A DNA stretch of 64,000 bases from Viridothelium virens. Taxonomy: Eukaryota > Ascomycota > Dothideomycetes > Trypetheliales > Trypetheliaceae. Shown piece by piece: positions 4,545 to 57,600 of this stretch. Numbering within the stretch: the first letter of the stretch is position 1; every line of letters starts with the position of its first letter. Both the position numbers and the translations under genes were made by a program. Where the stretch lies: NCBI GenBank assembly GCA_010094025.1, contig ML991815.1:186001-250000 (forward strand). Direction: 5' to 3'. The notes under the pieces are model-generated. The model did no database searches and was not told where the DNA came from. It saw only the letters and a program-made list of their open reading frames with translations.

Positions 4545-5050
4545 CCCCCCAATCCATCTACCACTGACTCACCTCCCCATGCTCCCAAAACTCTCCCGTC
4601 TTACCCCCCAACTCCCCCAATGCCAACATCACCGGCGTCCTCGCCCCTTGATCTGGCGTCTTCGCCCCACCCCCTTTCGTCATATCCGTCTTCACATATC
4701 CAGGACAGCACGAATTCACCAGCACCCCTTCCCTTACTCCCTCCACCTTCCCCTCGCTCACCTCCCGCGCCAACACCCGCGTCATCCCCGTCACGCCCGC
4801 CTTGCTCGTCGAATACGCCACGCTCGGCCACCCGGCCTCGGTATGCCGGCCCTCGTGCACGGAGGCGCTGAACTCTTGCATCAGAGTGGTGATGTCCGAG
4901 ACGGAGCGCGCGGCGCGGAAGCGTGAGGTTATCGTCGGGGAGTACTTGTTGAGTTTGCCGGCCATGGAGGAGACGTTCACGAGGCGGCCGCCAGGGCGGA
5001 GGTGGGGGAGGAGAGCGAGCGTTGTGTGCAGGGTGCCGTAGTAGTTGATC
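4545..5050. other. C-rich to G-rich skew switch in the SDR gene
   Basis: On the plus strand 4561-4620 has 33 C and 3 G, while 4981-5040 has 33 G and 11 C; the flip lies near 4880. The block is coding, and the bias sits mostly at third codon positions. It is one of five such blocks in the window, all C-left/G-right. Confidence 0.85.
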
Positions 5051-5616
5051 TTTAGGGTGGTGTCGACCATTTCGGGATCTGCGGGCAGGGGAGGAATTAG
5101 CACATTGACTTTGTTTTTGTCCCAAGTCTGCATTGAGGTCGTTTATGGTGAGGAGGCGGGATGAAGTCATGTAGATGAAGTGGGTGAGAGTGAGACGAAC
5201 GGAATCCTTGTTCAGCAATGCCGGCGTTGTTGATCAGCATGTCGATGCCGTCTGGGTGTTCCTTCTTCAGAAAATTCGCAAACGAGTTGATGCTCTGATC
5301 ATCTGCTATATCTAGTTCTTGATACTTGACAGTCGTCAAGCCGCCATCTTGCGCAAGAGCTCGGGCTTTTTTGAGCGCGGAGTCGCTCTGAATGCTTTTA
5401 AGTGCATCTTGACCTCGTGTCTTATCTCGTGCGGTCAGATATATCAAGAATGGTCCATTATTGAACGAAGATTGAGGGTACTGGAGCGCTAGGTTGCGGA
5501 CTGCATCAAATGAGCTATAGTTCTAAGAAAGCGCGTATAGTAAAGAAAAATATACCTATTGCAAGTCCAATGCCTTTGTTGGCTCCAGTAACAGCAGCGA
5601 TGCAACTATGAGACAT
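4558..5616 (-). CDS. Short-chain dehydrogenase/reductase, carbonyl-reductase-like
   Basis: Three exons in coding order (5616-5556, 5500-5201, 5078-4558) give 293 residues, the size of CBR1-type carbonyl reductases. The NADP-binding motif TGANKGIG is at residues 10-17, NNAG at 111-114, the catalytic serine region VSS near 157, and YSTSK at 209-213 (catalytic Tyr209 and Lys213), so the active site is complete. A cytosolic NADPH-dependent reductase of carbonyl compounds is likely; the substrate cannot be told. The second intron (5079-5200) has a weak gttcgt donor, and an extra small exon inside it is possible. The 3' half carries a strong C/G strand-asymmetry switch, recorded separately. Confidence 0.88.
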
Positions 5617-6272
5617 GATGAATGGAAAATATATCACCTGGAGTGTGGTTCTAAGACAGCATCTTTAATAACCTATGGTGACGGTAACTTTCAGAAGATC
5701 GAAGACGTCGACCAGTCGACTCATGAAGACTACATTTACGTCATCATCTCATTTTTAACGGATGTGTTCGAGCTAATGACCGCAAAGGGGCAAACTAGTG
5801 AAGCTCTAAACATGCAAGAACTGCTATGCAATGACCATTGTACGTGCATTTGTAGACTAAGCAGATGCGGGCTACGCAGGACTGTGACGGAGTATAACGT
5901 TTAACGTTCAACCATTTGGCGAACGTTAATTCGGGAATTAACATTTCCTACACAGCAACTCTCCCACAACAGCACCGCAGCGCTATACGTCGCTTCAAGC
6001 GATAATGGCGATATTAGGGCTGAAAGATATACTGGCTATGAATTTACGATAATAAGGCAACAATCACTCAGTAAGTCAAGTGGCATTGAAGGGGTTTAAG
6101 AAGGCTTCGTACAGAATCAAAAGAGGTGATGCACATCAAGCAATAAAATCATTATGAGAACTTTTCCTGTCCGTCTGTATCCAGCGAATGGACGATGTCT
6201 AGATGAACTATCATAGATGGATAGCCTATAACATTAGACGTGCTGTTGAAGACCGAGTTCGGCGACACGAAA
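5617..6272. other. Intergenic region upstream of the SDR gene
   Basis: This holds the presumed SDR promoter and the 3' end of the acidic-protein gene. It contains three AACGTT hexamers (5896-5926) and an inverted repeat at 5925-5942. A 98-codon plus-strand frame at 5608-5904 overlaps the SDR first exon and has no recognisable content. Confidence 0.5.
5925..5942. promoter_or_regulatory. Operator-like inverted repeat
   Basis: GTTAATTC-GG-GAATTAAC is a perfect 8-base inverted repeat with a 2-base spacer, about 310 bases upstream of the SDR start. Its size fits a dimeric transcription-factor site; the binder is unknown. Confidence 0.35.
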
Positions 6273-6967: not shown

Positions 6968-7461
6968 AGCGATTTGTGGTGGTGAGAGGCGATGGGTGAG
7001 GTGTTGGGCAGTAGGTGGTGGAGGTGGGAGGTGGGAGGTGGGCGGTTGGGTGGAGCTGAGAAGTGGGAAAAGAGCTCGGAGGGCCCAGCTCCAAAAGCAA
7101 GGGGAAGGCCGACAGGCGAGGTGAAAGCATGGCCCAAGCTCCTACCAACCCAACCTCCCACAACGTCACCCCGGAGCCTCAAGCCTTTGACATCAGCGCC
7201 GAAGCAACCATGGATCCTGTCGCTTGCCTCAGGCCTGGCACGCTCCGTCACCCGAGCCGACTTGGACCGTTTGTCAGCTCCAGCTCCATTCGAGCGAACT
7301 GCTGCTGCTATGCAGAGTGCTCTACAGCTGTCGGGACATCTCGGTTGAAGCAGGGTTTCAGGTGCTTGAACAATGCAGAACTAATATTATCGTCCTATTA
7401 TGTGCGCTACTTTGAATTCATGGGTAGAACAAAAATACGCATAGCAATCTGAAGCCTAGAT
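6968..7461. other. Intergenic region between two minus-strand genes
   Basis: About 490 bases contain the promoter of the acidic-protein gene and the 3' UTR of the DUF3292 gene. The promoter-proximal part is G-rich on the plus strand and contains a G-quadruplex motif. Open frames here are composition-driven. Confidence 0.55.
7026..7050 (+). repeat. G-quadruplex motif near a start codon
   Basis: Four GGG runs at 7026, 7033, 7040 and 7048 are separated by 4, 4 and 5 bases, a canonical intramolecular quadruplex pattern. The unit GGGAGGT is tandemly repeated. It lies about 60 bases upstream of the minus-strand start at 6967, on the non-template strand's complement, so any effect would be at the DNA level. 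Confidence 0.6.
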
Positions 7462-13311: not shown

Positions 13312-13580
13312 GAGATAACCGAGCAGGGCACAACTTGTGGGATCGGAACAGTCATATGAATTATTCTTGTAGGCGAAGATGCTACGTCGGAGTATACGGT
13401 GAAGAGGGTCTTGCATACGTCATTCTGGATTCGTGGCATACCCCGGATTCTCAATATTCAGTGTGTCAACTCTATAGGCTTACAACGGCAAGGGAGACGG
13501 TCTTTCAGGTTTTAATTACTCTTGGTTGTTGCGTGGATAGAAAATTTGGTGTCTTCTTCAGAGTGTTAGGTAATATAGAC

Positions 13581-15214
13581 CTATGCCCGATCATTTACAA
13601 TTTGTTCTTCCAATGCCTGTGCAACATCAAGAACCAGATCATCGCTACCAAACTGTCCAATGATTTGCATACCCACAAACGGAAAAGCTTCTCCTTCAGC
13701 ACTGCTGTTGTCCGCGTTCGGAACCGGAACACTCACAGCAGGCAAGCCCACCAAGCTCGCCGGGACCGTAAACACATCATTCGTGTACGCATCCACGGGA
13801 TTTCTCTCTCTCAGCGTGTCCAGCGCAGGCGGCAATCCCGGCGCCGTCGGACAAACCAACACATCTACCCCTTCACCCTCTCTCCCATCCTTCCCCTGCC
13901 CCGCCGTCTGCAACCCACCATGAAGCTCACCAGGCCCAACTCCCATCCGCAACGGATTCCCCACCCGAAACACCGTATCAAACTCCTCCTGTACCCTCCT
14001 CCTCACCCTTTGCGCCTGCAAGAAATAGTTCCCCCTCGCCCCCTTACTCAACCCATACGCCCCCAGCACAATCCTCCGCTTCACCTCCGGCCCAAACCCC
14101 TCGCCCCTCGTCCGCGCATACAGCACCTCCGCCTCCGCGCCTCTCTGCCCCTCGGCTCCGGGGGCACCTCCTCGCGCATCAGGCCCCGCAGCCCGCGTCC
14201 CGTACCGCACCCCGTCGTACTTCGCGAGGTTCGAGCTCGCCTCCGCAGGCGCCAGCACGTAGTAGGCGGCGAGCGCGGCGGGCGTGCTGGGGAGCGACAC
14301 GGCGTGCAGAGTGTGCCCGAGGGCGTGCAGCCGGGCGAGGGTGGCGTGCCAGGTTGTGCGGATGGAGGGGGAGAGCTCGGTGGGGTTGTAGTGCGTGGGG
14401 ATGCCGATGCGTAGCGAGCGGGGGCTTTGGGCAGAGGAGGAGGAAGAGGCGGTGGTGGTGGTGGTGGCAGCGATGCGGGAGCGAGTGGAGGGGGGCAGGC
14501 TGGTGGGGTCTTTGGGGTCGTGGGCGTTGAGGGCGGCGAAGACGGAACGCGTGGTGGAGACGGTACGGGCGAGGATGCCGACGGTGTCGAGGGAGTTGGC
14601 GTACGCGAGGACGCCGTGCCGGGAGAGGAGGCCGTACGAGGGTTTGAAGCCTATGGTGCCGGTGTAAGCGGCGGGGAGGCGGACGGAGCCGCCGGTGTCG
14701 GTTCCTAACGAGGCCCAGCATTGGGAGGTGGCTACGGCGACGGCGCTGCCTCCTGAGCTGCCGCCGGCGGAGGGAGGCTGCTGGGCATGGTGGTTGTGTG
14801 GATTCTTGACCGAGCCGAAATGGGAGAAGGTGGAGTGGGAGCCCATCCCAAATTCATCGAGATTTGTCTTGCCAGTGATGATAGCACCACTCTCGCGGAG
14901 CCTACGGACGACAGTGGCATCGTATGAACTGTTGAAGTTTTTCAGGATATAGGATGCGGCCGTGGTTGGGAAATCTGATGTGCAGATATTGTCTTTCACG
15001 GCAATGAGCTTTCCATTGAGTGGTCCTGAGATTTGTCAGTTTTGACAGGATCACACTCTGGCAATATGGACTTACCTCCGGGTTCTCGAATACTATCAAC
15101 CTTCTGAGCAGCGGCCTCCAAAAAACTCCGGTCGGCAAGGCTGATGAATGCGTTGAGGCCATGGTGTGCTTGAGCATTGGCGAGGCATCTTTGGACGTGC
15201 CTAAGGCTTGACAT
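13581..15214 (-). CDS. GATA: Glutamyl-tRNA(Gln) amidotransferase subunit A, mitochondrial
   Basis: Two exons in coding order (15214-15076, 15025-13581) give 527 residues. GatA is the amidase subunit that supplies ammonia from glutamine to convert Glu-tRNA(Gln) into Gln-tRNA(Gln) in mitochondria. The amidase-signature catalytic set is present: Lys57 in AVKDN, the cis-serine in GGSSGGSA (near residue 136) and the nucleophile Ser160 in [10 protein letters not shown]. The N-terminus is short, as in yeast Her2, and lacks an obvious long presequence. The second exon contains a marked C/G skew switch, which also creates a spurious 359-codon frame on the opposite strand. Confidence 0.93.
13800..14720. 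other. C-rich to G-rich skew switch in GATA
   Basis: On the plus strand 14041-14100 has 33 C and 5 G, while 14521-14580 has 31 G and 11 C. The flip lies near 14220, inside the coding region of GatA. Confidence 0.88.
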
Positions 15215-18619: not shown

Positions 18620-18679
18620 GGAGTATGTCAACATAGAATCACAACGGCTATATAGTAGAACCACAATGGAAACGGCATT

Positions 18680-19072: not shown

Positions 19073-19201
19073 CTAATCGTTGCATTACCTACTCGGTGAA
19101 CAGGATCCCACGTATTTGCCCGCTGCGACGTTCCAATAAGAAACCCCTGCCTCTGAGAAACATGCGACAGCATTCCCATGAGATCACCCACAAACCTCCC
19201 A

Positions 19202-19246
19202 TTACGTCAAAGGGCAGACTTTGTACTCCCTCTCGCCTCTATATAT
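19202..19246 (+). promoter_or_regulatory. CRE-like site and TATA box of the SMP-domain gene
   Basis: TTACGTCA at 19202-19209 (an ATF/CREB-like octamer) is followed by TATATAT at 19240-19246, 110 bases before the start codon at 19356, and then by a pyrimidine-rich stretch. This is the clearest core-promoter arrangement in the window and suits a stress- or spore-induced gene. Confidence 0.5.
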
Positions 19247-19355
19247 CTACTCCCACATGCTCACCTTCTTCTCTCCTCTCCAACACTACCGCGACCGTAA
19301 TCATCATTAAAGAGTCTAGATCAACCCTAGTACACATTGCGAAGCCCACCCAATT

Positions 19356-19677
19356 ATGCCTAATCCCAACTCCAACTCCGCCTCTACGGGCACCCCAATG
19401 ACTAGCCAGGATGCCTCTCGCATTCAGTCATCTCAGGTACCCCATCCCATCCCTACCCCTCTTGCACTACCACCACCAAATCCCACATGAGCCATCTGTG
19501 CTTAAGCAGCAGAGTAACATCCCTTCGCAGGCACGCGGTGGCGGTGACATGTCCTCTGGCGGTTTCGCTGCCCGCGCTCAGGCTGGCGGGGCGAGAAATG
19601 AGAACTCGGGACTGACGGGTGGAGCGGGTGGCCGTGGAGCCAGTCAGGGGAATCAAGGAAACCAGGGAGGGAACTAG
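19356..19677 (+). CDS. Small SMP/LEA-like hydrophilic protein
   Basis: Two exons (19356-19436, 19531-19677) give 75 residues rich in Gly, Ser, Asn, Gln and Ala with no hydrophobic core. The block SQDASRIQSSQARGGGDMSSG (first part SQDASRIQSSQ at residues 17-27, then GGGDMSSGGFAARAQ) matches the seed-maturation-protein (SMP) type repeat found in LEA-like proteins. Fungal proteins of this kind are associated with desiccation and stress tolerance in spores. The intron falls between the two halves of the motif and keeps frame. Its promoter has a TATA box and a CRE-like site. Function is inferred from family resemblance only. Confidence 0.72.
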
Positions 19678-19926
19678 CGATCTAGATTGTTGACGCTGGG
19701 TTTATTAGTTCTAGAGACTGGTCTCAGAGAGAGAGAGGGGTTGGGTTTTTGAGGACAGTCGAGGTTGCAACAGATCTCGAGAGATACATTCATTTAACCT
19801 TGGGATTTTGCAAATGGAATTTTGGCCAAATTAGATTTCAAGAAATCTATAAAAAGAATCTTATGCCGAAGATTGCTTCTTGCTCTATAGATGCGGAAAA
19901 CGTGCATACTGTAGAGAATTGTGGCT

Positions 19927-31000: not shown

Positions 31001-33094
31001 TTCTTCGTCTTCTTTCTTCTTCGCTTCTGCCTCCTTCTCGGCTGCAAGCCTCTGCTTGACTAGTTCTTGAAACGCCGTCTTAGTATCCGCGTCATTCTTC
31101 ACCACCTTGCTCTCAGATCTCGCATGTTGCGTATCAGAAGAGCTTGCAGATCTTGGGGGAGGCGGCGGAGTAGGCGTCGAAGAAACGACTGGTGCAGGAG
31201 AGGGCGCCTTTGCGTCTTTTTGATCTTTTTGGTCTTTTTGATCCTTGAAGTCAACCACTTCACCATTCGGATTCTTGATGACGATCCCTTTACTCTTTGC
31301 CCGGGTAAAGTTAGAGGACTGCTGTGGAGAAGCGATGCTCGGCGCCGGGGTGTGGCTTGAAGACGGTTGGCTCGCAGGCGTCATTGCAGGTGTCTGAGGC
31401 GGACCACCGACAGATGCAGGGCGTTCAGATACCTGTGAGTTAGAACGAGACATACCATTACTTGGAAATTGCCCAGGCTGCATGTAGGTTTGTGATGGGT
31501 TGTGCGGGGGGGTGTAATTCGGGCGAGGGGAGGGCGGAGCACCTGGGAACGGCATTCCCGGATGCATGTAAGGCTGGTACATGCCCCCATAGTTAGGGTC
31601 AAACTGAGGAGGCATGCCATAGTAACCCTGGGATTTCAAGTATGTCAGATATTGGTTGTAAGAAGCATCACCTGGCGAGAAGTCTGGCGAAGGAAAGGCG
31701 ACAGAATGAGAAAGATGGCGTGAATGTTGAAATTGTTGAGGGGGTTGTCGATCCTTCGACTTTGAAGCTGAAGTTGCTGCATTTGCCGAAGGAGTAGAAC
31801 TGTGTTGGGGATCTTGCTTGTCGGGCTGAGAAGGGAAACCATTCTGTTGGTTGCTGTCGCTATGGCGGTTGGGATGCTGATCAGATGGCAAAGGAAAGGG
31901 CGGGTTTACTTGTTGCTGAGGGGTCAAATGCTGGTATGGACCATAAGGTCCAGGCGGCATATGAGGGCTATTTGACATGGGACCTCGCGCCATGTGCGGT
32001 TGTGCAGACATTGGCGCTGGGCTGCCTTGTCTAGCATATGATTGAGCGTTGGAAAATTGGTTCATAGGCATCCCCTGTCCGGGATATTGGGGTGGCATGC
32101 TCGGCGGTCGTTGTCCGGACATCGACCGGTAGGGTTGTGCGGGAGAGTGTGCCATGTTGGGCGGATAACCTTGGTTGTATTGGCCACGACCACGACCTCC
32201 TGGGAAGCCTCGGTTGCTCATGTCACTGTGCGCAGACTGTGATGACTCGCGACGAAGATGAGCTGCTGTCGCACTGGGCGTATGAGGGCCTTGGCTGGCG
32301 ATTGACGCTGATCGATTCTGCCGAGAATGTTAGCAGTTCTGGTCGAGAATGAGATAGAAGGCTAAGCCATCAGCAGTACTTACGTTGGCGTCGGGTGGTT
32401 CATGGAACGAACCGAAATTCAGAGTATTCCCTTGTCCCTGGAGCCCAGAAGGAGGTCGCCCACCGCTGGCAGGCGGTTGGGGAATGGGCGAGGGTGAGTG
32501 AGCAGGTGACTGGATTCGAGGATTTGGTGGCAAAGGAGTACTGAGGTTGGAATTTTGATGGTGGAATGGCTGGGTGTGCGCCAAAGCTGGAGAACTTTGC
32601 GCAGGCAATCCACCGAAATTGAGATTATTGATATTAGAGCGGGTGGCTGGACCGACGGGGCCTCCATTTGATAACTGCCCACTTGTTCCAGAGGCACTGA
32701 TGGTGACTGAGGTTTTTCTGCTGTGGTCTCCGCCTTGGCTGTTGGGGGCTCCATTTACGATGCTGCTGCTGGCGATAGCAGGTGGCGGCCCGACTGCTGG
32801 CACAGCGGGTTCAATGGAGTTTCGCCCGTTCACAGGCGAGATGGAGTTTGATTTGCCATGCTGGGCAGGCCCGGTACCACCCACTGCCACGGGAGGATTG
32901 GGTGTGCTCGATGCGATCAAGGGCGGCGAAGGGTTCTTCTTGGTCGCGTTTGCATAGGAGCGGGCAGTGGAGGCTTGGGCTGGCCCGTCGACCAGCGGCG
33001 ATGCGGTCCCACCAGCGGACGAGGAACCGGCGCTGGCTGCTGTTGCGGCTTGGTTGATGGGGTTTTGTGTGGCGGGTGAGACGGTGCTTGTCAT
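28080..33094 (-). CDS. TIF4631: Translation initiation factor eIF4G
   Basis: Four exons in coding order (33094-32384, 32317-28820, 28758-28271, 28215-28080) give 1610 residues. eIF4G is the scaffold of cap-dependent initiation, bridging eIF4E, eIF4A and poly(A)-binding protein. The first 900 residues are low-complexity (Ser, Pro, Gln, Asn), with an RGRG patch, tandem KDQ triplets near residue 600 and a long Lys/Glu/Ala charged helix. The eIF4E-binding motif YDKEFLMQF is near residue 956. The MIF4G domain starts near residue 1172 (VQRKVKAALNKMTPEKFDKI) and ends close to the third exon, which adds a glycine run and an RNA-binding-like basic tail. No MA3 domain is seen, as in yeast. The symbol is the yeast one and is assigned by family. 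Confidence 0.93.
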
Positions 33095-35439
33095 TAGAAA
33101 AGCTGCTGGGTTGATGTAGGATGTAGGATGTAGATTCGAGGGCGGTGGTTTGAATGAGATTGTGCGCGTAAAGGGGTGTAGACTCGACGAATTTCAAATC
33201 CGAGGAGCTGGTCGGGTATCACGAAAAGGCCTGGTCGAGAAGTGGAGAGTCTCGATGAGGTCAAAGAGCAAAGGTGCTGGATGGAAATGAAGCAAGGGCG
33301 AGGGTGGAATAAATTGTCGAAGCAACGTTCGGAGGCTGACACGGCGCACTACTCACAGCGAAGGAGTGGAGGCGCGCAGCGGTCACTCAACAGTCGGTGT
33401 GTCGCTGGACGATGCGAGCCCAGGTAAGAGTCTCCCGATGAAAATGGAAGACTGTCAGAGGGAGATGCGGTGATGGCTCCCTTGATGTGATTAGGGATTT
33501 GGGTGTTGGTGTGGGAGAGAGAGGTTGAGGTCAGGGCCTTCACTACGGCAAAATAAAATCGGGTCCTGGCCGGCTCCCTTTCACGACCACGACCAAGTCC
33601 CAAGTCCACCCAGTCCCTCAAACGGCCGCCCTCATCCCTGCCTCACCACCCAAAACCCCCAGATTACACAAGTATTGGCTATCTGGCGTACCCGCTATCT
33701 AATCATTCTGGCCCATGAAGCCTGTTCTTTGAAGAGGCTGTTCAGCTGCGGTGTTGGACGACTGCTCTTCATCCACCATTGCCGGTCGCATCAAGTACCT
33801 TCTTGGCTCAGCGACACTCACCTTGGTCGCAAAGCCTCCCATGCGCCTCGACCTATTTCTGTATCTAACCAAAGCCCGGCGGAGATATGCGCATAAGAGT
33901 GCTCTAAACTCCAGTGCGCGGTGGAGAGATTTTTTTTTGTTTAGCGGACAATATTACGCACAGCAATCTGCATGATGATGACGCCGGCCTCAGAAAGGCC
34001 GGGAGCTGTTGCCTGCCTTCCGCTCTCCCGCCAGCGATGCTAGATTGGACCGTCCTTTTCTGCGCTAAGACAACGTGCCAAACCATGCTGCACCACTGAG
34101 GAATCTGATGAAGAATGAGGCGACTTCAGGGGAAGCATGTAGGATCATAAGCCGATTTTCATAGCAAGAAAAAACCTTCAGCAGTCCCAATCGCGAGCCA
34201 CGACGGTTGGTTCATGCATGCAGACACGGGTCTGCGCCTCACTTCCTCGCTCCCACAAACACCGTCAGAAGCGACGGGTGACTGCAGAGCACGCGACGCC
34301 ATTGGCCATCCCCAGGACCTTCGTAGAACAAGAGGCGGTTCACCTCGGCCGAAGAGACGAATGTTTGTGTGATATTTAATCGTACATCTGTAGGATTACT
34401 CGTAACATCTTGTTATCTTATCCATGCTTGCTTTTCCTCACCGACCAGAGAGCGAGTAGAGGACTTCCATACTCCATAAGCTGAATAGACTGCACCCACG
34501 TGAAGCAGTTGTCCACCGTTTGATGTTTCAGCGTGGGCGAATGATGAATACATGCGGCGTGAAGGCATTGGTTGTTGGTTTCACGTTGCCCGTGCTGAGA
34601 AAAGGTTATTCGCACCCCTGTGTGCACCAGCCTCCCACGCCTCTTTAGCCCGACAGCGGCTCCCCTTCTCCGGGTCTTCGAGAAACCTTCGACGCAGGTC
34701 GGTGGCGCCCGAATTCCGCTGGGCTCAAGCCACATCTCATCTCTTCACCCCTTGATCTGCTCTTTTTATTAGCCCGACTGAGAATACGAGGTGTTGGTAT
34801 CTCTGGGAGAACCGTGAGCATAGGAACATCTCGTGCGACCTCGTGGCGTGGATGCAGGGACGCTGGTCAATCTATGTTCCGCCCAACAGTAGCAGTCTCA
34901 CCTTTCCAAATGTTAAGTTACGAATTGGCTCAATCATAAGGCTTCTGGCGTACCAGAACTACTCCATGTCAACTGCGAATTTGATGTCAAGAACTGCGTT
35001 GCATATGCTACTAGCGTAAGCTACATAAAAGTGCTTGACAACAAAAAGGGTATCAGTGCCTGCCTCCCAGAAATCGTCAAATGCTTGCAGAGCCGAACCG
35101 CCTAGCAGTGATCGGAAAAGGATTGAAAGTAGTGGAGAGGTATGGCCTGCATTCCAAAAACCAGGCCCCCCCGACAAATCGGAAATGGAATTTAACTAGA
35201 GACAAGAAAGAAACGGATAAAAATACAATCAATACTTTATTCAACCCAGTCCCAACTGACCCCATTTTTCCATCCAGTGAGGTGCTGTCTTTCTATAGAC
35301 CGCATTCATGTCATCGTCGCAAAAGAAAGATAAAACGAAGTTTTTAAAAATGGCATTCTTTTGAAGTTCCGATCCAAGAATTTGATAGATGAATAACCTG
35401 TTTCCTTCTAAAAGGAATGTGCCTCCAGTATTACAAATA
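33095..35439. other. Gene-free region upstream of eIF4G
   Basis: About 2.3 kb separate the eIF4G start from the stop of the homeodomain gene. G-rich (33480-33540) and C-rich (33560-33660) patches and a run of eight T near 33932 are visible. Open frames are short and unlike proteins. A long 5' leader or a leader intron of eIF4G is possible. Confidence 0.45.
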
Positions 35440-39961: not shown

Positions 39962-39997
<36 letters not shown>

Positions 39998-45199: not shown

Positions 45200-48100
45200 A
45201 TGGAGAGCTTGGCAGCTGCTATAGAGCAGCTTCAAATCAATGAACGCTCAAAATTGGCTCGAGAGCCGGGTTGGATCGATTCTGCATTGAACGAGCAGCG
45301 TCCGGGGAAACGTAAAAGAAGAACAAAAGAAGAAGTGAAAGCTCAGCTAGAGAAGCACTTTTTGTCGCCTTCAACTTCATTTGATACTCACTGGTTGAAC
45401 GAGCTGCAGCAAAGATGGGAAATTCCGACCAAGTACGCCGACTTGTTCGAAGTTGCACCAACCCAGACACGAACGATTATTCGATTCACGAGAGAAGGAC
45501 TCGAAGGTCGTGTCACTGGCTACAAAGAGATCACTATCCCTGCAAATAGCGCAACAGCAAAGAATTCGACCTCAATACTGCGTAAGCCTGCAAATCGGGC
45601 GGATTTTGTGCGTGGCGCTGCTGGCTATTTCCCCTTTGCTCCTGGTGGTCTAGATGGAGTAGAAGCTGCCGCTGCGTACGAAGACGAACTCATTCAAGCC
45701 AAGGAACAAGAACGTGCCCAAAAGAGTAACGGATTAGATCGAATTATTAGCTTTGGGACCGATGGTGGCCTTCTCGAAGTACCTCCTGGCTTCAGTCGGG
45801 GTCTTGGCCTTGAGAAAAGAGCTACTGCGAGTCTGCAGAATGAGGCAGAAGTTCAGAATGTTCTTGATGAAGACCCGGCGGAGCCTGTTACTGCTAATGT
45901 GATGACCCAGAGCGATACGAATGGTCAGGCAGATAGAAAGGCCGAGGAAGACGAGACTGAAGAAGACGAGGATATCGATTCCCTTCTCCCGGTTGAATTT
46001 CCAGCCTTGGCACCACATGGTCAACTTGCTATGTCTGCAGCAACACGGAAAGGGAGACAATGGGCACACATGGTTGATGTGAATCGGGATATTACTAACT
46101 TCCGCGAACTTGTTCCCGATATGGCTCGAGATTGGCCTTTCGAGCTCGATACATTTCAAAAGGAAGCAGTCTATCACCTGGAAAACAATGATTCGGTCTT
46201 CGTAGCTGCTCATACCTCTGCAGGAAAGACCGTCGTTGCCGAGTATGCAATCGCACTTGCAGCCAAACATATGACCAAAGCCATCTACACTTCTCCTATC
46301 AAGGCATTGAGCAACCAGAAATTCCGAGATTTTCGGAACACTTTTGATGACGTCGGTATCCTTACAGGAGATGTTCAAATACGTCCTGAAGCTAGCTGTT
46401 TGATCATGACGACGGAGATTTTACGAAGCATGCTCTACCGCGGCGCTGATCTGGTGCGAGATGTTGAATTCGTCATCTTTGATGAAGTTCACTACGTTAA
46501 CGACTTGGAACGAGGCGTAGTATGGGAGGAAGTCATCATTATGTTGCCTGAGCATGTCACTTTGATCCTCCTGTCTGCTACTGTCCCTAATACCTATGAA
46601 TTCGCATCTTGGGTCGGCAGGACAAAAAAGAAGGATATTTATGTGATCTCGACACCGAAAAGACCCGTTCCTCTGGAGCACTATTTATGGGCTGGAAAAG
46701 CCATGCACAAAATCGTCGATGAAAACAAAAAGTTCATCGAAAAGGGCTGGAAGGAAGCCAGTGACATCTTTACTGGCAAGGACAAGACTAAGAAGCCTAC
46801 TTCAGTTGAACAAAGCCAGGTTTCGCGCGGTGGTGCTTCTGGTGGAGGCCGCGGACAGAACCAACGAGGAAATGCGCAACGGGGAAATAATCAAAGAGGC
46901 GGAGCACAGCAACGCGGTCGTGGACAACCTGCTTCGAGAGGGCAAGGAAACATTGCCAGAACCGGAAGAGGAGGGGGAAGAACAACTGCAGCGCAGGACA
47001 AAAACATCTGGGTTCATCTAGTCCAACATCTCCGTAAGGAAGACCTTCTGCCGGCCTGCATCTTCGTCTTCTCGAAGAAACGCTGCGAAGAGAATGCCGA
47101 TGCACTCTCTAATATTGACTACTGCACGGCAACCGAAAAAAGCGCGATTCACATGATCGTTGAGAAATCGATAGCGCGACTTAGACCCGAGGACCGGATT
47201 CTTCCGCAGATTCGAAGATTACGGGAATTGCTCAGTCGAGGGATAGCTGTTCATCACGGAGGTCTTTTGCCTATTGTGAAAGAAATCGTTGAAATTCTGT
47301 TCGCCAGAACTCTAGTCAAGGTACTCTTTGCAACGGAAACGTTTGCTATGGGTCTTAACCTACCGACAAGAACTGTTGTGTTTTCTGGCTACCGTAAGCA
47401 TGACGGAAGATCTTTCAGGGATCTATTGCCCGGCGAGTATACTCAAATGGCTGGCCGTGCGGGACGAAGAGGTTTAGATCCGGTCGGATCAGTCATTATT
47501 GTGACACCTGGTGCGGATGAAGCTCCGCCTGTAGCTCGATTGAGACAAATGATTCTAGGAGATCCTACGAAGTTGAGGTCTCAATTTCGTTTAACGTATA
47601 ACATGATCCTGAACTTGTTACGGGTGGAAGCACTAAAAATTGAAGAGATGATCAAGCGAAGTTTCAGTGAAAACGCTACGCAGGCACTCTTGCCAGAACA
47701 TGAGAAAGCGGTCAAGCTCTCCGAGGCCGACTTGGCTAAGATAAAGCGCGAGCCCTGTGATATCTGCGACAAAGATCTTGAACTTTGTCATCAAGCGAGC
47801 ATGGATTACGTTAACTTGACAAGCGAGCTGCACGTAGCAGTCCTTGCTTCGCCGGTTGGTAAGAAGACTTTTTCACCGCGGCGATTGATCGTCTACAAGA
47901 AGGTAATGAACTCGAAATGATACCTTGATGAACATTACTGACGTGATAAAGGATGGGATTCGCACCGCTGGTGTCTTGACTAGAGAAGGAGTTTTCGCCG
48001 GTCCATCCCCTCGAATACAAGTTGTCGAGATCAGTAGAAAGAACAGTATTCCAAAGCGACACAATGCTGACCTGCTACCGTATCTGGATCGATTTCGAAG

Positions 48101-49103
48101 ACGATTTACTCCATTTGTCAGTGAAGCTGCGGATATGACATTGAAGCCGGAAACAATACTGCTCAATGATGTCGAATGTGTAACGCAGACCGTCACGAAA
48201 GTGGATATACATGGCATTTTGAACTATGGTCAGGACGCGCTCGCTGCAGGGCGCAAGGAACTTTCGGCCATCTGCTCTTCATGGACGTCCTCATCTTGGA
48301 AAGAGGTTGACTGGTATCGTGTCAAGGACATCAATGTTCGCAACATTCTTGATGAGCGCAAGAAAGCGGGCAAAATTGCCCAGGAACGCGAAGCCGTATT
48401 ATGTCTCCAGCTTGAGAAACATTTTGCGATGCGACATGATGAATGGCTCATTAAAGAAAATATCGCCCAACTGCGACAACTGATGAGCGACCAGAACCTC
48501 CAACTCCTTCCCGACTATGAACAGCGCATCGCCGTCCTCAAAGACCTCGGCTTCGTGGACATCAATTCGCGCGTCGAGCTTAAAGGCAAAGTCGCCTGCG
48601 AGATCCACTCCGCCGACGAGCTCGTTCTCACAGAGCTCATCCTCGAGAATGTCCTCGCCGACTACGAACCCGAAGAGATTGTCGCCCTACTCTCTGCCTT
48701 TGTCTTCCAGGAAAAGACAGACAACGAGCCCACCATGACACCTGCTCTCGAGCGCGGACGCGCGACCATTGTCGAGATCTCGGAGAAGGTCAACCACTAT
48801 CAGACGCTGCGACAAGTAATTCTCAGCGCCGATGACTCGAACGACTTTGTCAGTCGCCCACGGTTCGGGCTGGTGGAGGTGGTGTATGAGTGGGCGCGGG
48901 GAATGAGCTTCAATCGGATTACGGATCTCACGGATGTACTCGAAGGGACGATTGTGAGGGTGATCACGAGGCTGGATGAGACGTGTAGGGAGGTAAAGAA
49001 CGCGGCGAGGATTATTGGAGATCCGACGTTATTTACGAAGATGCAGACGTGCCAGGAGATGATCAAGAGGGATATCTGCGCAACGGCGAGTTTGTATATG
49101 TAA
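45200..49103 (+). CDS. SKI2: Superkiller RNA helicase Ski2
   Basis: Two exons (45200-47902, 47952-49103) give 1284 residues, almost the yeast length. Ski2 is the DExH helicase of the cytoplasmic Ski complex (with Ski3 and Ski8) that feeds mRNA 3' ends to the exosome in turnover and antiviral defence. Motif I AHTSAGKT is near residue 340, the DEVH box near 427, SAT near 455 and QMAGRAGRRG near 750. An Arg/Gly-rich insert (residues about 535-597) sits between the two RecA domains. The C-terminal arch and helical-bundle parts follow, with GIRTAGVLTREGVFAG right after the intron. The 3' end shows the C-then-G skew switch. It is convergent with the thioesterase gene, 97 bases apart. Confidence 0.95.
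48490..49070. other. C-rich to G-rich skew switch in SKI2
   Basis: On the plus strand 48601-48660 has 23 C and 13 G, while 48961-49020 has 25 G and 7 C, with the flip near 48830. It is the weakest of the five blocks but the third-position change from C to G is plain. Confidence 0.7.
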
Positions 49104-49200
49104 GGTAGTGCTGATGCAACTTTCATGCCGCAATTGTACGATGGAACGGTTGATGAACTCCCTATAGATATGGATATATGACTCAAAACAGGGATTATTG

Positions 49201-50202: not shown

Positions 50203-50421
50203 TCTTCCAGTATGTCTGAAGAAGTAAGAGTTTGCCTTGATCTAAAGCACTCATGGGCTTCTTCTGGAGCAGCCAGCAAGGCGGAGCGGAGCGGAGAGCT
50301 GGGCGCCGGGAGACGCCCCTATGGGACAATTCCATTCTTTGTAGCTTTCACCCATCACTCAAGCGATGATAACTAGGTGACAACATCCTTTTGCGGAGGA
50401 GGCTCCACCAACATCGTCACG

Positions 50422-52042: not shown

Positions 52043-52390
52043 AAAAAACAAATGGGTTCTAGAAGGGTGTATAACTGGTATAAAAGCATCCCAAACAGGA
52101 CATGGCGTTTTGGATGCACTGCGGATGACATTGAGGCAATACCATTTGTAAAATACGCACTTTCTTCCTGATCAGTCTGACTTGAAGTGCTGTCTCTGGT
52201 TATTGTAGGGATAGGCCATCAAAATATCGACCAGACGAAGTGGGGCAACTCGAGTTGTTTACGTCCTTCCTGGCGGAAGGTGGGTTTATTGTTCCTTCCT
52301 GACCCAGCCAAGTGATCCAGCACTGGGTCTTGTGCTTTTCCACCACACTTCACTTCCTGAACCCCTTCATCACCATGCCCCAACACGCGA
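52043..52390. other. Intergenic region, TFB2 to the 648-residue gene
   Basis: About 350 bases of 3' UTR and promoter. I see no gene or repeat. Confidence 0.5.
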
Positions 52391-54337
52391 ATGACAGTTG
52401 TGGAAGCGAGTTCGAATGACTTTAATCTCCTTGTAGCCAGATGGGAGGAGCTGAGTAACCAGGTAGAGCAGCAGGTCTCAAACAACATGCAGAAACATCG
52501 GTCATCACGGATCTCTGCTACCGAACCAACTAGCGAAGACCTCAAAAAGTTGCATCGCCTGAGTTCAATCACGTCCATAACGTCATTGGGAAGTACCCAC
52601 TCTTCCTTCGTCTCGTGGATCCCATTCACTCGAAGGCGGCAACCCACAGATGGTCTCAACACCAAGTCTGAGCCAACTGTCTCAGAACCAATATCCAATA
52701 GTGGCCAATGGTCAGCCGAGAAAACTCAAGCAAAAGGCACTGGAAGGACTCCTATGAAACATATCTCAGGAAATATAAATCCCACAGGACATCATGCTGA
52801 AAAGCAACCCAGGCCATCACTACCTCGCAGTAGCACTTTTAGTCACCTGCCCATCAGTACTGCCAGTCGTCAGCCGAGCGAGACGCGTCCTCCATTGGTG
52901 TCTTCGCAAACAACCTCTGCCTTACCATCAAATAGGATTCCAACACCGACTACCGTTGAGCGCTCACGTATGCAATATCAGCCCAAGCCACTTCCCACAA
53001 CACCCAAACGCAATGGATCCAGTCGGCCTCCAAGAGCATCGAGTATTCAGCGATCAAGCACACAGCCTGCACTACCCACGATCGAGGCTACACCACCGTC
53101 GGCAGAGAAACCAAAGAAAGAGATTGCTTCTGCATTTGCGAACACCAGCCAGCATGCTTTGCTCCATCAATCTGCAGCAGCTGCGGAGCGTATTTTCAAG
53201 CCGATGTCGGACGATGACATGTGGAAAAAGATCGAAGAAGCAGAATATGATGCCGAAGACGAGTCACGCATAGTTAGAAAGACTGCTCCTAATCCAACGC
53301 CAAGGCGAGCAACAAATTTGCCAAAAACAGACGAGCACGCGGGTATTTACTACGTGACGCCAACCACCAAACCTATGCGACGAGGCGAAAGCCAACCAAT
53401 TGTCGGGCACGATGGGCCTTCAAAGCATCGTCCTTTGCGACCATCCCATGGGATCGCTCAGCGTCAACTCCTGCAACCTCTTCTGCCACCTACACCTCCT
53501 GCACTACAAAGCCCGCCCCACGTATCCAAGGCCAAAATCAACCAAATAAAAAGTATCAGGAGTGTCAGTACCACCCAACTTGGCAGCCCCCCAAACGACA
53601 GCCCATCAAGCAGCCGCTCCAGCCCGGCACCAACGACGCCCCACCCCCTCCTCCAAGTTTCCACCTCCCAACCCTCCAGCTACTGGGCTGGCCGCCTCCT
53701 CTCCCTCTCCGACCACCTGCAATCCAGCCACGCCTCATCCGCGCTCTCCTCACAATCCACCCCGTCCTCCCGACCCGCCAGCAGCATCTTCAGCAACCCG
53801 TCGTCGTCCTCGTCGCGCTCCCTCACCGCCACCACCACCACCACGCCCTCCAGCTCCTCGCTCCACCTCTGCGCCAACCCGCTCGACATCGCGCTCGAGT
53901 CCGACGCCGCGCGCGCCCGCTCCGCCCTCACCATCCTCTTCGCCTACTGCACCTCGCCCGAGGCCGTCGACTCCCTGCGCGACTTCCAGCGCGCCTATGC
54001 TGCCCGCGTCCGCCTGCCGGAGATCGCGCTTCCGATCCCGAGGCCTCGCATCGAGCGCGTGGCGCTGGAGGTGGGGATGGTGAGGGAGGAGGTCGAGTGG
54101 GTGAGGAATAGTGCTGGGGTGAAGGTGGGTCGGGGGAGGAGGAAGGTCGGGTTTTGGGTTGTGCAGAAGGGGGAGGGGGAGAGGGTGGACGAGGATGGTG
54201 GTGTGGGGAGGGTGAAGAGTCCGGGGGTGGTGGCGGTAGGGGAACATGGTGGGGGGAGCGGGAGTGGGAGTGGGAGTGGGAGGAAATTTAGTTTTGTGGA
54301 GAGGTTGATAGGGAGGACGAAGAGAGTGGTGAGCTAG
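52391..54337 (+). CDS. Unrecognised 648-residue disordered protein
   Basis: A single exon encodes 648 residues. I do not recognise it. The first 35 residues form a plausible coiled coil (FNLLVARWEELSNQVEQQV). A Ser, Pro, Thr and Arg-rich linker makes up most of the chain. A structured-looking segment near residues 500-570 (ALTILFAYCTSP and SLRDFQRAYAARVRLPEI) is the likeliest conserved part, and the end is Gly/Ser-rich with KFSFVERLIGRTKR. There is no signal or membrane segment. Composition changes sharply from C-rich to G-rich codons near 54050, so the last third should be read with care; the frame nevertheless stays open. Confidence 0.65.
   Translation: MTVVEASSNDFNLLVARWEELSNQVEQQVSNNMQKHRSSRISATEPTSEDLKKLHRLSSITSITSLGSTHSSFVSWIPFTRRRQPTDGLNTKSEPTVSEPISNSGQWSAEKTQAKGTGRTPMKHISGNINPTGHHAEKQPRPSLPRSSTFSHLPISTASRQPSETRPPLVSSQTTSALPSNRIPTPTTVERSRMQYQPKPLPTTPKRNGSSRPPRASSIQRSSTQPALPTIEATPPSAEKPKKEIASAFANTSQHALLHQSAAAAERIFKPMSDDDMWKKIEEAEYDAEDESRIVRKTAPNPTPRRATNLPKTDEHAGIYYVTPTTKPMRRGESQPIVGHDGPSKHRPLRPSHGIAQRQLLQPLLPPTPPALQSPPHVSKAKINQIKSIRSVSTTQLGSPPNDSPSSSRSSPAPTTPHPLLQVSTSQPSSYWAGRLLSLSDHLQSSHASSALSSQSTPSSRPASSIFSNPSSSSSRSLTATTTTTPSSSSLHLCANPLDIALESDAARARSALTILFAYCTSPEAVDSLRDFQRAYAARVRLPEIALPIPRPRIERVALEVGMVREEVEWVRNSAGVKVGRGRRKVGFWVVQKGEGERVDEDGGVGRVKSPGVVAVGEHGGGSGSGSGSGRKFSFVERLIGRTKRVVS
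53560..54300. other. C-rich to G-rich skew switch in the 648-residue gene
   Basis: On the plus strand 53701-53760 has 32 C and 6 G, while 54121-54180 has 36 G and 3 C, with the flip near 54050. The G-rich half contains a long quadruplex motif. Confidence 0.9.
54251..54280 (+). repeat. Coding-strand G-quadruplex motif
   Basis: Five G runs (54251-54256, 54260-54262, 54266-54268, 54272-54274, 54278-54280) are separated by three-base loops. The tract encodes Gly-Ser repeats and would be present in the mRNA, about 55 bases before the stop codon. Confidence 0.75.
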
Positions 54338-54662
54338 TGGTTCAGAAACAGATGAGGAGAACATGGTAATGGGCGTGTACGAAAGTTGTGAGTGTAATGT
54401 TTCCATGGTAATGGGGGGGATTGATGAGGGATGAGCCATGATCAACGTGTAACGCATTTGATAGACAGGCAGCAGGTACTGCTGGGTATCCATACCAAAT
54501 TTTATTCGCCATGCCAATTTAGAAGGCATTTCTGCACAGGAAGTCTAGCTTAACAGTCTACTGTAAGAGCTTCTACCTTTACCTCTAGATCCTGACTTTG
54601 ACAGTAAGATGGATCCACAAAAAGGGACACAATATCCAGAAGGGAAGGCCGTAATCAAAGTC
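54338..54662. other. Convergent intergenic region
   Basis: About 325 bases lie between convergent genes and should be 3' UTRs. Nothing else is seen. Confidence 0.55.
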
Positions 54663-57600
54663 TCAAGGCTCGGTCTCTCTCATCGTCATCCGTGCAACTT
54701 GCTCCGCAACTCCAAGGCTCCCACTCCTTGTTCTACCATGACCACGCTGGGGTCTGACACTCCCCATCTGCTCTTCTAAGCTCATTCTACCTGTTAGGCC
54801 TACCTCAGCTGTCCCTCCAGGCGTTTTTGGCGTACTCTCTTTACTCCTACTGGATCCTGAAGTTTCTGGCCGCTTCTGCTTTGTAGGACTTCTCGGACTT
54901 GTGGGTGTCGCAATCAGTCCCCTATGGCCCTCCATCAGCGGCGGGGACGAAGCCGAAATCTCATCCGCAACTTGTGCCTGCTCCGCAGTATCCGATGCCT
55001 GACTCTGTCTGAGCCTACTCTCCAGCTTCTTCCCCGCACTCCCACCAGCCCCGACCGCCGGCGCAGTCGGCTGGACCGAATGCCGCCTTGGCTCCTTCTC
55101 CTTCTGCAACGGCTTGCTCAGAAACCGTTGAAACGCGGTGCGCCCATCCTGAGCGTCCTCCTCCTCTTCCTCATCACTACTTCCCTCAAAATAAATCTCA
55201 TCCCACGCCGAACTCGCCACACTATCCTCCCTCCTCAACGCCCTCGGCATCAAACCCCTCCCCGCCTCCCCCTCCCCATCCCTCGCAACCGAGCCCCTCA
55301 AAGCCGTCAGCTCATCCCGACTCTCCCTCATCTCCCCCTCCACCTTCCCATCCCCCTCCTCCCCCTCCTGCGGCGCCCCCTTACTCTCCTGCCCGCTCAC
55401 CTCCCGCCCACTCTCCACCTCCCTAACCCCCAGCCCCGCGGCCGCCCGATCACGACTCGGCTCCTGCTCATCGCGCGTCGCAGCAGCGTACGTGTCCGCG
55501 AAGTGCGTGTCGCACAGGTGCTTGATGACAGGCCAGCCATACGCGTTCGCAAAGCGGCGGCGCACAATCATGTTGTTGTGCGCGTCGGGCTCGAGGCGCA
55601 CGAGCACCTTGCGCCACGAGAGGTCGCGGTGGTAGGCGCGCGCGATCTTCTCTTCGACGCGCATCCCGCCTGTGTTGGTGGTGGCGTCGGTGTTGCCGAG
55701 GGCGGGGTCGGGGCTGTGGAGGCTGGGGCTGTGGCTGCTGTGGTTGTTGGGTTCGCTGCTGCTGCCGCCGAGACGCGGGCTGCTGGAGGAGAGGGTGGAG
55801 AGTGGGGTGGAGTCGGCGCTGGAGAAGGAGAGGGGTTTGGATTTTTTGGGGGGCGGGGGCGGGATGTCTTCGGGGTGGTAGACGCGGTCGTGGAAGATGG
55901 TGCGAGGGCGTTTGGAGGGGTCGATGAGCCAGGATGTTGGGGGGATGGGTGGGTTGAGGATGTCGCCTGCGGCTTCGAAGAGGGAGGTTTTAGGAGGAGG
56001 GTTGGCGCGTTGGGGAGTTTCGAGGAGGGAGTCACCTCTGGTAGCTATCGGTCGCTTTTGATTTTGACCTAGAGGTTGAGCGTCAGAGGTGAGGCTACCG
56101 TTCACAGGTGGTGTCGTAGCAGTGGAGTCAGAGGCTGGAGAGGTAATGGAGGTATCGGATCCAAAATCGCTCGATCGTAGAGTCTGGCTGCGTGAGTACA
56201 CACGTTGAGTCTTAGCTTTTGGCGGTTTAGTGCGTGATGAAGATTTAGGGTTGGGTCGCAAAAAATTCCAGAGGCTACTGAAAGGATTGGTATCTTGAGT
56301 ACTGGCGCTAGACATATCCTCTCTTGTCTGTTGTTTTGCTGCTTGCTGCTCGCTTAGAAACTGATGGCTCTTTGGATCTGATGATGTCTGCTCTTCATCA
56401 TCTGCATTTGCGGCTCCGTCTGGAGGCTGAGGTACAGCTGAACTATCGGGATGCTTGGCCAGCATCTCGGCATCTTCGCTATCCCAATTGTCCGACTCAG
56501 TTGTAAGAGCAGCTTTTGACGGATTCGGAGAGGAAGAGTTTTCTCCAGTGATTTCTCTCCAACCCCATGAAGCCATTGTCCCAATGAGGCCGTTTTCACG
56601 TCGGGCCTTTTCAGCCTTATCTAAGCCTCTCCAGTCTAGGAATAGAAGACAGCTTGTACGCAACGGTACGATACCATCGTTCACGACATTAGAATACAAC
56701 GTTCGATTTCTGAAGCGAAGCAATATCTGGTGAGCAGGACCGGTTGGCAGGATACGCAAGAGAGGCTTTGATCCGGGGTCTTCTTGCTTTGGTTTGTTTG
56801 GGGCGGTGGAGCCAAAGCCGCCAACAACGGCACTCCATCCACTTCGCGTAATCGTGGTGGGTCTCCAGGTCAAGCCAAGATCCTGGCCAGTCCGGCCGAC
56901 AAGCCCAAAGTCCAACGCGAATTTGACGTACATTGGATTTTCATTGCTCAGGCCAAGCATAGGAGACGCCATGGCAATAAAGTTGATCGGCTTGATGTTA
57001 TCAAAAAATTGAGGTGAGTGTTTGTGTATGTATGCTATGGCATAGAGCTGTACAATGCCTCCGAGAGAATGTCCGATAAAGCTGATACTTGTGAATTTGT
57101 AAGGAAGTGGATCAAGTTTCCGGTCACTCTTGTGGATAGAGCTACCGGAATGTGAGGCCGGGCCTGAAGCACCGTCTTTAGAAGAGCCACTGGAAAAGGT
57201 ATTTGAGAAACTCCGAGTCATGGACTTCTTCGCGGGTAGAAAAGATTGGTCAGGGTATGTCATGGTGAGAATGTGTTTCGCAAGTCTCTTCCCAAGATAC
57301 TGTATACCCCTTTCCGTTCGAGTGACATTTCCCGTAAATCCTCTAACAAGGACCTCCTCGTCGTCGGCATCGTCGAGTCTGCTATCCTGGTCACCATCAC
57401 CACCCGTTCCAGGATGACCGGATTTCTCATTCTCGCTCCTCCTCCGAGCGCTGGCCTCTTCCCGTGCCTTTCTTGCAGTTGCATCGATGCTTTCTTTCAG
57501 GTAGAGCATGTCTGCACTGACATTACTGTGCAGACCATGCGTAAGGACGACAAGATGAAACTTCTTCTGCTTCGCTTGTATTTCGGTCGCACTGCTCTGT

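Follow-up and report, generated by a model that had tools for sequence, protein, structure and literature searches.

The closest described counterpart of the pattern reported here is an average over genes. In most of the fungi they examined, McLean and Tirosh (2011; PMC3315797) found that the coding strand is C-biased toward its 5' end and G-biased toward its 3' end, that the bias includes four-fold sites and continues into 3' UTRs while A and T stay nearly flat, and that the all-gene average takes the form of gradual ramps, read in the available text as transcription-linked or adaptive. Human constitutive replication origins (Murat et al. 2022; PMC9645720) have strand biases that invert at the origin and are focused on ~1 kb; when sequence evolution is modelled from the mutations at human origins, both a local rise in GC and the composition skews are recreated. 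At human and mouse meiotic break hotspots (Hinch et al. 2023; PMC7615360), strand asymmetry is mirrored about the break point; in human, the forward strand undergoes C>N and A>N substitution in the single-stranded DNA left of the break. Marsolier-Kergoat (2011; PMC3020949) describes conversion tracts that shape third-position composition near gene ends in a model with breaks outside coding sequence; the available text does not contain the word 'skew', and in our loci the centre lies inside the gene. Local strand bias tied to genes is also reported by Fujimori et al. (2005; PMC555766), as transcription-start GC skew in plants and fungi and as a C-bias ahead of the translation start in some fungi, with no 3'-end switch in the available text. 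In the gerbil 'GC skew' papers, as far as their accessible text goes, the term denotes an excess of GC.

We analyzed a window of 64,000 nucleotides from Viridothelium virens (GCA_010094025.1, contig ML991815.1, positions 186,001-250,000 of the forward strand), together with a sample of the same genome. The average 5' C/3' G coding strand of fungal genes is present here, with skews of -0.07 in the first 200 bases, -0.06 in the middle and +0.13 in the last 200 bases of 29 ORFs that lack a switch. Unlike the gradual ramps of the gene average, however, the strongest skew is found at discrete loci with mirror-image blocks and a GC peak, where the C-to-G transition spans 45-170 bases (16 strong loci), and many genes have little skew. 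The first-pass annotation of the window knew of no description of such switches, a claim that does not survive the gene-average form published in 2011. What is new here is the discrete, sharp, GC-peaked and mirror-symmetric loci, although other descriptions may have been missed.

Switches in the window and across the genome

We define an up-switch as C-left/G-right on the top strand and a down-switch as G-left/C-right. The features of the window are collected in Table 1.

Table 1. Composition switches and their host genes in the 64,000-nucleotide window (base counts are for the top strand)
Feature	Position	Strand	Details
Switch 1, C-rich block	4530-4854	+	162 C, 44 G
Switch 1 host, short-chain dehydrogenase gene, 3' part	coding segment 4564-5121	minus	Pfam adh_short, E 2e-18
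Switch 1, G-rich block	4855-5202	+	143 G, 59 C; centre 4854
Switch 2, C-rich block	13580-14258	+	293 C, 121 G
Switch 2 host, amidase gene	ORF 13581-14999	minus	Pfam Amidase, E 2.7e-110
Switch 2, G-rich block	14259-14841	+	294 G, 111 C; centre 14258
Further switch, absent from the first-pass list	19107-19767		centre 19526; C block 19107-19526 (160 C, 56 G), G block 19527-19767 (98 G, 45 C)
Down-switch (G-left/C-right), counter-example	33180-33880		at 33530-33536; score 58 (350-base flanks); outside called coding segments
SKI2-like helicase gene		plus	DSHCT domain in 47925-49103
SKI2-like helicase gene switch, weak	48491-49116		centre 48749-48807; C-terminal part of gene
Host of strongest switch, 648-codon gene	ORF 52391-54337	plus	no Pfam family
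Strongest switch in window, C-rich block	53417-54052	+	302 C, 113 G; centre 54052
Strongest switch in window, G-rich block	54053-54435	+	200 G, 24 C; reaches ~100 bases beyond stop codon
DUF676 serine esterase gene, host	ORF 54663-58232	minus	Pfam DUF676, E 2.1e-41
DUF676 gene switch, C-rich block	54675-55484	+	357 C, 141 G; centre 55484
DUF676 gene switch, G-rich block	55485-56255	+	331 G, 143 C

The first-pass annotation had listed five switches and described them as always C-left/G-right. Their positions and polarity were right to within ~80 bases of the centres measured here, and the large 60-base excesses it noted are real, with extremes of 40 C to 4 G and 40 G to 3 C. Four of them are extreme; the fifth, in SKI2, is weak, and its score of 41 (350-base flanks) is below that of the strongest down-switch of the window, so that the claim of a single order is correct for the strong cases but not for all of them. 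The list contained neither that down-switch nor the up-switch at 19526, which exceeds the SKI2 switch with 250-base flanks (53 vs 37). The 19526 switch is probably noncoding DNA because it has no called coding segment and no three-base periodicity; the two small ORFs there gave no Pfam match. One of the six down-switches, at 54486 in the window, is the forced junction of two adjacent up-switches.

An independent sample of 25 stretches of 10 kb (250 kb) was taken from the same genome without regard to skew. Up-switches outnumbered down-switches in this sample by 13 to 0 at 350 bases/0.20, 21 to 2 at 350/0.15, 23 to 4 at 250/0.15 and 18 to 1 at 500/0.15, with sign-test p values of 7e-5 to 3e-4 for settings that overlap and are not independent. 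Weak, short settings show little or no asymmetry (168 to 162 at 100 bases/0.10, 41 to 27 at 100/0.15), and the window alone gave as many down- as up-switches at some short settings (10 to 10 at 100/0.15), with 4 to 2 at 150/0.20. When the 250-kb sample was shuffled 20 times in 12-base blocks, each shuffle contained on average 0.05 up-switches at 250/0.15 and none at 250/0.20, 350/0.15 and 350/0.20, compared with 23, 11, 21 and 13 in the real sequence at these four settings. The shuffles and sign tests rule out a chance origin. Across the whole genome (30.7 Mb), CCTCC-N100..130-GGAGG has 1585 matches and the reversed pattern 1205 (p 7e-13). The excess of up-switches suggested by the window is therefore found in both the independent sample and the genome-wide pattern count, confirming that the observation is real and reaches beyond the window. 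Extrapolation gives a genome total of ~1350-2830 switches.

Shape and placement of the footprint

Averaged over 16 strong switches, five of them from the window, GC peaks at 0.67 at the centre compared with 0.47-0.50 in the flanks (0.47-0.49 at 700-800 bases). Skew goes from -0.60 to +0.55 across the peak and fades by ~600 bases; past 700 bases it is within ~0.15 of zero and inconsistent in sign. Nine hosts have at least 1 kb of upstream coding sequence, and in these the third-position skew lies between -0.63 and -0.75 in the interval 200-600 bases upstream of the switch, whereas past 1 kb it scatters from -0.18 to +0.11 and the all-base skew is slightly C-biased (-0.16 to +0.10). The strong C block extends only ~700 bases upstream of the switch rather than through the 5' part of the gene. 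Because third-position skew is strong only near the switch in these hosts, a point-centred process fits better than one acting along the gene. The first-pass annotation had proposed a strand-symmetric process centred on a point, and its reading of point symmetry, DNA-level action and polarity stands. The footprint is mirror-symmetric about a point, on coding or noncoding DNA alike, with GC raised at the centre. A k-mer ranking of the 16 centres returned mostly GC-rich words, none of them convincing as a shared motif.

Gene calls were made with our own codon-score script rather than taken from an annotation, and their segments begin at exon starts rather than at gene starts. Coding sequence contains 25 of 28 switches, 157-819 bases before the stop codon, and the called strand is backed by a Pfam match in 20 of these 25 hosts. 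Placement toward the 3' end is less strongly supported: the centre is nearer the stop than the segment start in 15 of the 25 (12 of 16 for better-scoring hosts), with a mean relative position of 0.60 (Wilcoxon p 0.02). Centres fall in the 3' half in 10 of 13 segments of at least 900 bases (p 0.09), 10 of 11 of at least 1200 (p 0.01) and 8 of 8 of at least 1500 (p 0.008). The median distance to the stop is 376 bases compared with 477 in simulations (p 0.09), and in every one of 20,000 simulations at least one distance exceeded the observed maximum of 819. One other switch, L022:2963, looks like that at 19526, which lies outside a called gene and lacks three-base periodicity.

Over the 100 noncoding bases that follow the stop codon, mean skew is +0.47 in eight strong loci, compared with -0.03 in 44 other genes (p 4e-5). 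The metagene hints at a process that ends exactly at the stop codon, since the pooled skew of switch genes falls there from 0.56 to 0.23, but distance from the centre fits better than such a boundary because 7 of the 8 strong loci are still G-skewed in these 100 bases. At equal distance, the UTR side is less skewed than the opposite flank (0.15 vs 0.25, 15 loci). Genes without a flagged switch have a skew of +0.12 to +0.14 in their last 180 bases (45 genes, 42 with full windows there).

Base-level biases

We refer to the strand that runs 5'-3' outward from the switch centre, top strand rightward and bottom strand leftward, as the X strand. Of 25 loci, 24 have more G than A on this strand and 24 have more T than C. 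Across the switch, every one of the eight four-fold codon families goes from C to G, codon positions 1 and 2 are skewed as well, and on the G side the first-position synonymous choice favors AGR over CGR (0.64 of 154 codons vs 0.46 of 1342 in the background). Because all eight four-fold families switch and the skew enters 3' noncoding DNA, amino-acid or codon choice is ruled out as the cause; the first-pass annotation had argued from third positions against protein sequence as the explanation. At X-strand four-fold sites C is no rarer than T (0.11 vs 0.10), yet at two-fold sites C is only 0.23, and one reversible bias does not account for both.

We also picked 47 GC peaks (GC at least 0.58) blind to skew: 14 at 0.66 or above, 10 at 0.62-0.66 and 23 at 0.58-0.62. 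Skew is higher on the right side in 37 of the 47, with 19 full up-type peaks and one of down-type. All 14 of the highest peaks lie in coding segments and have the higher skew on the right; 10 are up-type and none is down-type. At 150-450 bases from these 14 peaks, G occupies 89% of 452 X-strand A/G sites but C only 24% of 289 C/T sites, indicating a strand-directed transition bias on top of the GC bias. A strong strand effect is confined to the highest peaks, since in the two weaker classes C/T sites are 47% C, near the 50% background, with A/G sites at 72% and 57% G.

Proposed recombination initiation and its rivals

Our preferred interpretation, tentative and somewhat short of an even chance, is that the switches are long-lived recombination initiation sites with GC-biased, strand-directed repair. 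Each switch may, with the same reservation, be the accumulated footprint of a DNA transaction that has restarted at the same point over long evolutionary time, and we infer this to be the repair of meiotic double-strand breaks. The central break would be resected and its 3' ends extended outward on the partner chromosome, the new strand being the X strand. Mismatches between copied and old strands would be repaired with two biases: the usual GC-ward repair, which would raise the central GC peak, and a strand-directed bias in which G.T mismatches, but not A.C mismatches, would be resolved to the X base. By itself, the strand-directed rule would favor G over A and T over C on the X strand, giving the top strand its C-left/G-right order. 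Long repetition would rewrite synonymous sites and part of the protein sequence.

The local GC peak expected of GC-biased conversion is present. Coding hotspots do occur in fungi, since 1435 of the 2578 population-genetic hotspots reported for Z. tritici are in exons (PMC5844332), and the number of switches extrapolated here is similar. In budding yeast, on the other hand, breaks are practically excluded from coding sequence (PMC3020949), which counts against recombination, and the recombination model does not predict placement near gene 3' ends. The discrepancy between four-fold and two-fold sites and the weak strand effect in the lesser GC peaks count against it as well. Deamination or other simple damage to resected 3' tails is excluded because the substitution asymmetry at human hotspots runs the opposite way (PMC7615360): the left forward strand there loses C and A, whereas the left top strand here gains both. 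An AT-rich stretch at the end of the window is RIP-like. With a Spo11-type TP6A_N match in the genome (E 3.4e-13, positions 25-62 of 62 only), it makes meiosis plausibly part of this fungus's life. PRDM9 hotspots are short-lived, and unlike them the switches must be old. Skew reportedly changes polarity at hotspot centres (Smagulova et al. 2011).

Local replication initiation is unlikely, although it has to be taken seriously. An efficient origin at the centre, with breaks and error-prone early synthesis on both sides, would produce a GC peak and inverted skews within ~1-2 kb, and the rise in GC with skew inversion on this scale that is expected of a constitutive origin is what we observe. C-left/G-right is the usual origin polarity. 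The downstream neighbour is convergent for 12 of 18 switch hosts (the 18 of 25 with a called neighbour) compared with 15 of 38 among other genes. The difference is not significant (p 0.09) but leans toward gene-end sites of the kind that yeast origins favor. However, the sign of the skew is lost by ~700 bases with no trailing along forks, and this inconsistency argues against long replication forks or any fork-length process. The coding placement of the switches is unusual for fungal origins. It also distinguishes them from human constitutive origins, as does the loss of C to T on the X strand, C>T being depleted in the spectrum of human origins (PMC9645720).

Transcription-linked strand bias is likewise improbable. 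Mutation or repair regimes that differ by transcription phase would leave the coding strand C-biased early and G-biased at its 3' end; an intragenic point from which antisense and sense transcripts run outward is a possible variant. Transcription is known to leave an A>G and C>T asymmetry on the non-template strand. Both the weak 3' G form in genes without a flagged switch and the fall in pooled skew at the stop codon favor transcription, as does the gene-average skew of most fungi examined (PMC3315797). The phases of one transcription unit, however, do not predict two nearly mirror-image blocks around a single GC peak. The short reach of the C block in the nine long hosts and the two switches outside called genes also argue against transcription, and the correlation between skew and GC, negative in PMC3315797, is +0.53 here by the narrower measure of the last 300 bases of 59 genes.

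Selection on mRNA or protein, in which the C-rich then G-rich stretch forms a stable 3' hairpin or reflects preferred residues or codons, is disfavoured and very improbable. Pairing between C and G blocks is strong from composition alone (-145 to -243 kcal/mol for 369-480 bases), and the skew at codon positions 1 and 2 and a slightly negative mean folding z would fit, but the real folds are barely better than codon-order shuffles (mean z -0.5, range -2.9 to +0.7, 15 strong loci with a host), which removes the case for a selected hairpin, and neither the four-fold families, the skewed 3' noncoding DNA nor the switches without a called gene fit selection. Plain GC-biased gene conversion with chance strand composition would supply the GC peak itself, but is scarcely credible given the one-sided polarity, and is excluded as the sole cause because the strongest skew-blind GC peaks show the same X-strand biases, C/T sites losing C (0.23-0.24 vs 0.50 background) where GC is raised.

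The 2011 paper, in its available text, left open the cause of the opposite GC skews at gene ends (PMC3315797), and resolution into sharp, point-centred loci makes that cause testable. If the centres are break sites, they would imply a strand-directed conversion bias, stable hotspots in coding sequence and mapping from sequence alone. It is conceivable, though rather doubtful, that the genome is a readable fossil map of long-lived recombination initiation sites near gene 3' ends, written by a G.T-to-outward-strand rule on top of GC bias, and that the fungal 5' C/3' G average is largely the blurred sum of such sites. Break position, repair polarity and tract length would then be readable from one unannotated genome sequence. 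The switches also warn that, near the ends of fungal genes, a DNA process rather than selection can shape codon usage and amino-acid composition.

Polarity and anatomy of the skew switches

The V. virens assembly comprises 30.7 Mb in 175 contigs; its genes, which include SKI2, eIF4G, amidase, fungal rhodopsin and MAT alpha-box matches, are those of a fungus and probably of a filamentous ascomycete. We drew a 250-kb sample from it without regard to skew: 20 of its stretches come from a set position in the 20 largest contigs, and the other 5 were the first to be drawn at random from contigs 1-44, so that with the window the sequence base is 0.314 Mb of one genome. Switches were scanned by the change in G-C between left and right flanks of 250 or 350 bases, and the coding segments and hosts are our own gene calls.

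The first-pass annotation had proposed that skew at five intragenic switches always changes from C-rich on the left to G-rich on the right (an up-switch), a polarity that equal numbers of the opposite order (down-switches) genome-wide would contradict. With 350-base flanks and a minimum skew of 0.20 on each side, the sample contains 13 up-switches and no down-switches. Looser settings give 21:2, 23:4 and 18:1, and short weak fluctuations show little or no asymmetry (168:162). The genome-wide pattern count, 1585 versus 1205 for the reversed pattern, agrees with the polarity of the sample, and extrapolation puts the genome total at about 1350 strong, or 2830 moderate-or-strong, switches.

Recomputation in the window located the five switches where they had first been placed, in the SDR, amidase (GATA in the first-pass annotation), SKI2 and lipase genes and the 648-codon ORF. 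Four are extreme; the SKI2 switch is not, and is weaker than the opposite-order switch at 33530. The secondary change between the convergent genes is forced by the two neighbouring switches and is not an independent down-switch. The long opposite-strand frames are probably a by-product of low A + T, and gene finders may call such frames falsely.

Features of the window and of other contigs (C) of the same assembly
Location	Strand	Feature	Remarks
7082-7138		Opposite-order switch	Modest GC peak (0.61); the sole down-type among the 47 blind GC peaks
19526		Proper switch	Absent from the first-pass list
32330-33094	-	ORF	Near the down-switch at 33530-33536
33530-33536		Strongest down-switch of the window	Not in a called coding segment
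53750-54529	-	Long open frame opposing a likely gene	In a switch region
54052		Switch, convergent genes	1.4 kb from that at 55484
54435-54675		Secondary opposite-order change (~54486)	Where the switches at 54052 and 55484 meet
54924-56072	+	Long open frame opposing a likely gene	In a switch region
55484		Switch, convergent genes
62751-64000		AT-rich, GC 0.25-0.40	TpA/ApT 1.0-1.8, against 0.65 for the window's first 62 kb
C147:13784-14185, C69:116082-116324, C150:15103-15358		Two MAT alpha-box matches (different contigs) and an HMG-box match (further contig)

Averaged over 16 strong switches (11 from the sample and 5 from the window), GC is 0.67 at the change point, or centre, and 0.47-0.51 at 700-1000 bases, with A and T declining together. 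Mean skew passes from -0.60 at 200-300 bases to the left to +0.55 at 200-300 bases to the right, and past 700 bases lies within about 0.15 of zero with no consistent sign; the change takes place over 45-170 bases. Among 47 GC peaks of at least 0.58 chosen blind to skew in the window and sample (314 kb), skew rises from left to right in 37, with 19 of full up-type and 1 of down-type, and every one of the 14 peaks at 0.66 or above shows the rise.

Placement in genes and composition of the outward strand

At a threshold of 0.15, 25 of 28 up-switches fall within coding segments, which together account for 41% of the sequence (p = 2e-7); none of 6 down-switches does. Two of the three up-switches outside coding segments, probably noncoding, lack three-base periodicity. 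The 25 coding centres lie 157-819 bases from the downstream stop codon, in host segments of up to 3.6 kb. A 3' preference is clear in hosts of at least 1500 bases (8/8) and weak over all hosts, where 15 of 25 centres are nearer the stop. Where a downstream neighbour was called, it is convergent for 12 of 18 hosts versus 15 of 38 other genes (p = 0.09).

The switches are the outcome of a DNA-level process. In each of the eight four-fold codon families, C endings before the switch give way to G endings beyond it. At the eight strong loci with a stop within 330 bases, the first 100 noncoding bases past the stop are G-skewed (mean +0.47), versus a mean of -0.03 in 44 other genes. In folding, codon-order shuffles are about equal to the real sequence.

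We denote as X the strand that runs 5'-3' outward from the centre on each side. In strong loci, between 100 and 450 bases from the centre, G makes up 87% of A/G sites on X (515 sites; background 54%), C makes up 23% of C/T sites (292 sites; background 50%) and four-fold sites are 0.69 G, 0.10 A, 0.10 T and 0.11 C (1548 sites). First positions of Arg codons favour A over C on X (0.64 of 154; background 0.46), and G is favoured over T in 0.72 of only 25 first-position contests (background 0.54). The preferences for G over A and for T over C each hold in 24 of 25 loci. They hold also in the 14 strongest peaks picked on GC alone, indicating that the signature is not an artefact of selecting loci by skew; in weaker blind GC peaks the strand effect is small. 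Within the first 50 bases of the centre, C/T sites are back to 51% C (45 sites). Judged from composition rather than from substitutions, the pattern points to A-to-G and C-to-T change on X despite rising total GC. The C:T ratio on X differs between four-fold and two-fold sites, so more than one bias acts.

Candidate mechanisms

A mirror-symmetric, strand-directed process with a fixed start point and a reach of about 600 bases is required. Among known processes, double-strand-break repair fits this geometry and accounts for the GC peak, and we tentatively favour long-lived recombination initiation sites with GC-biased, strand-directed repair, at somewhat under even odds. In synthesis-dependent repair, the strand freshly synthesised on the donor template would be X; if G.T mismatches were settled toward X and A.C mismatches were not, a rule that we infer, X would gain G and T, matching the composition.

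The strongest rival, although we consider it unlikely, is local replication initiation at the centre, since the footprint at human origins, in the available part of its description, has the same outline as the switches (PMC9645720). A transcription-linked bias is marginally less probable again; it ranks next because the effect is located at gene ends and shows weakly in genes with no flagged switch, but a purely transcriptional gradient is at odds with the mirror symmetry, the GC peak and the limitation of the strong C block in long genes to the roughly 700 bases preceding the switch. We reject damage of resected tails as the cause here because substitution asymmetry at human hotspots, in the portion of that study available, has a polarity opposite to that of the fungal switches (PMC7615360).

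Possible sexual cycle and known gene-end skew in fungi

The MAT alpha-box and HMG-box matches could bear on the mating system; both alpha-box matches have a stop codon within the matched stretch, which could be an intron, and the HMG-box match is split in two. The TpA/ApT values of the AT-rich stretch at the end of the window, which we take to be RIP-like, suggest sexual cycles in the past.

In the available text of McLean and Tirosh (PMC3315797), the coding strand is C-biased at the 5' end and G-biased at the 3' end in most fungi examined, a skew that extends to four-fold sites and UTRs and for which transcription-linked mutation or selection against polymerase collisions is put forward there. 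Compared with that account, the V. virens loci have the same direction and placement, but they are discrete and sharp, have a GC peak and correlate positively with GC. In a limited search of the open-access literature, no account of discrete, GC-peaked switches within fungal genes was found. We propose that the known average skew is at least partly the sum of such discrete loci.
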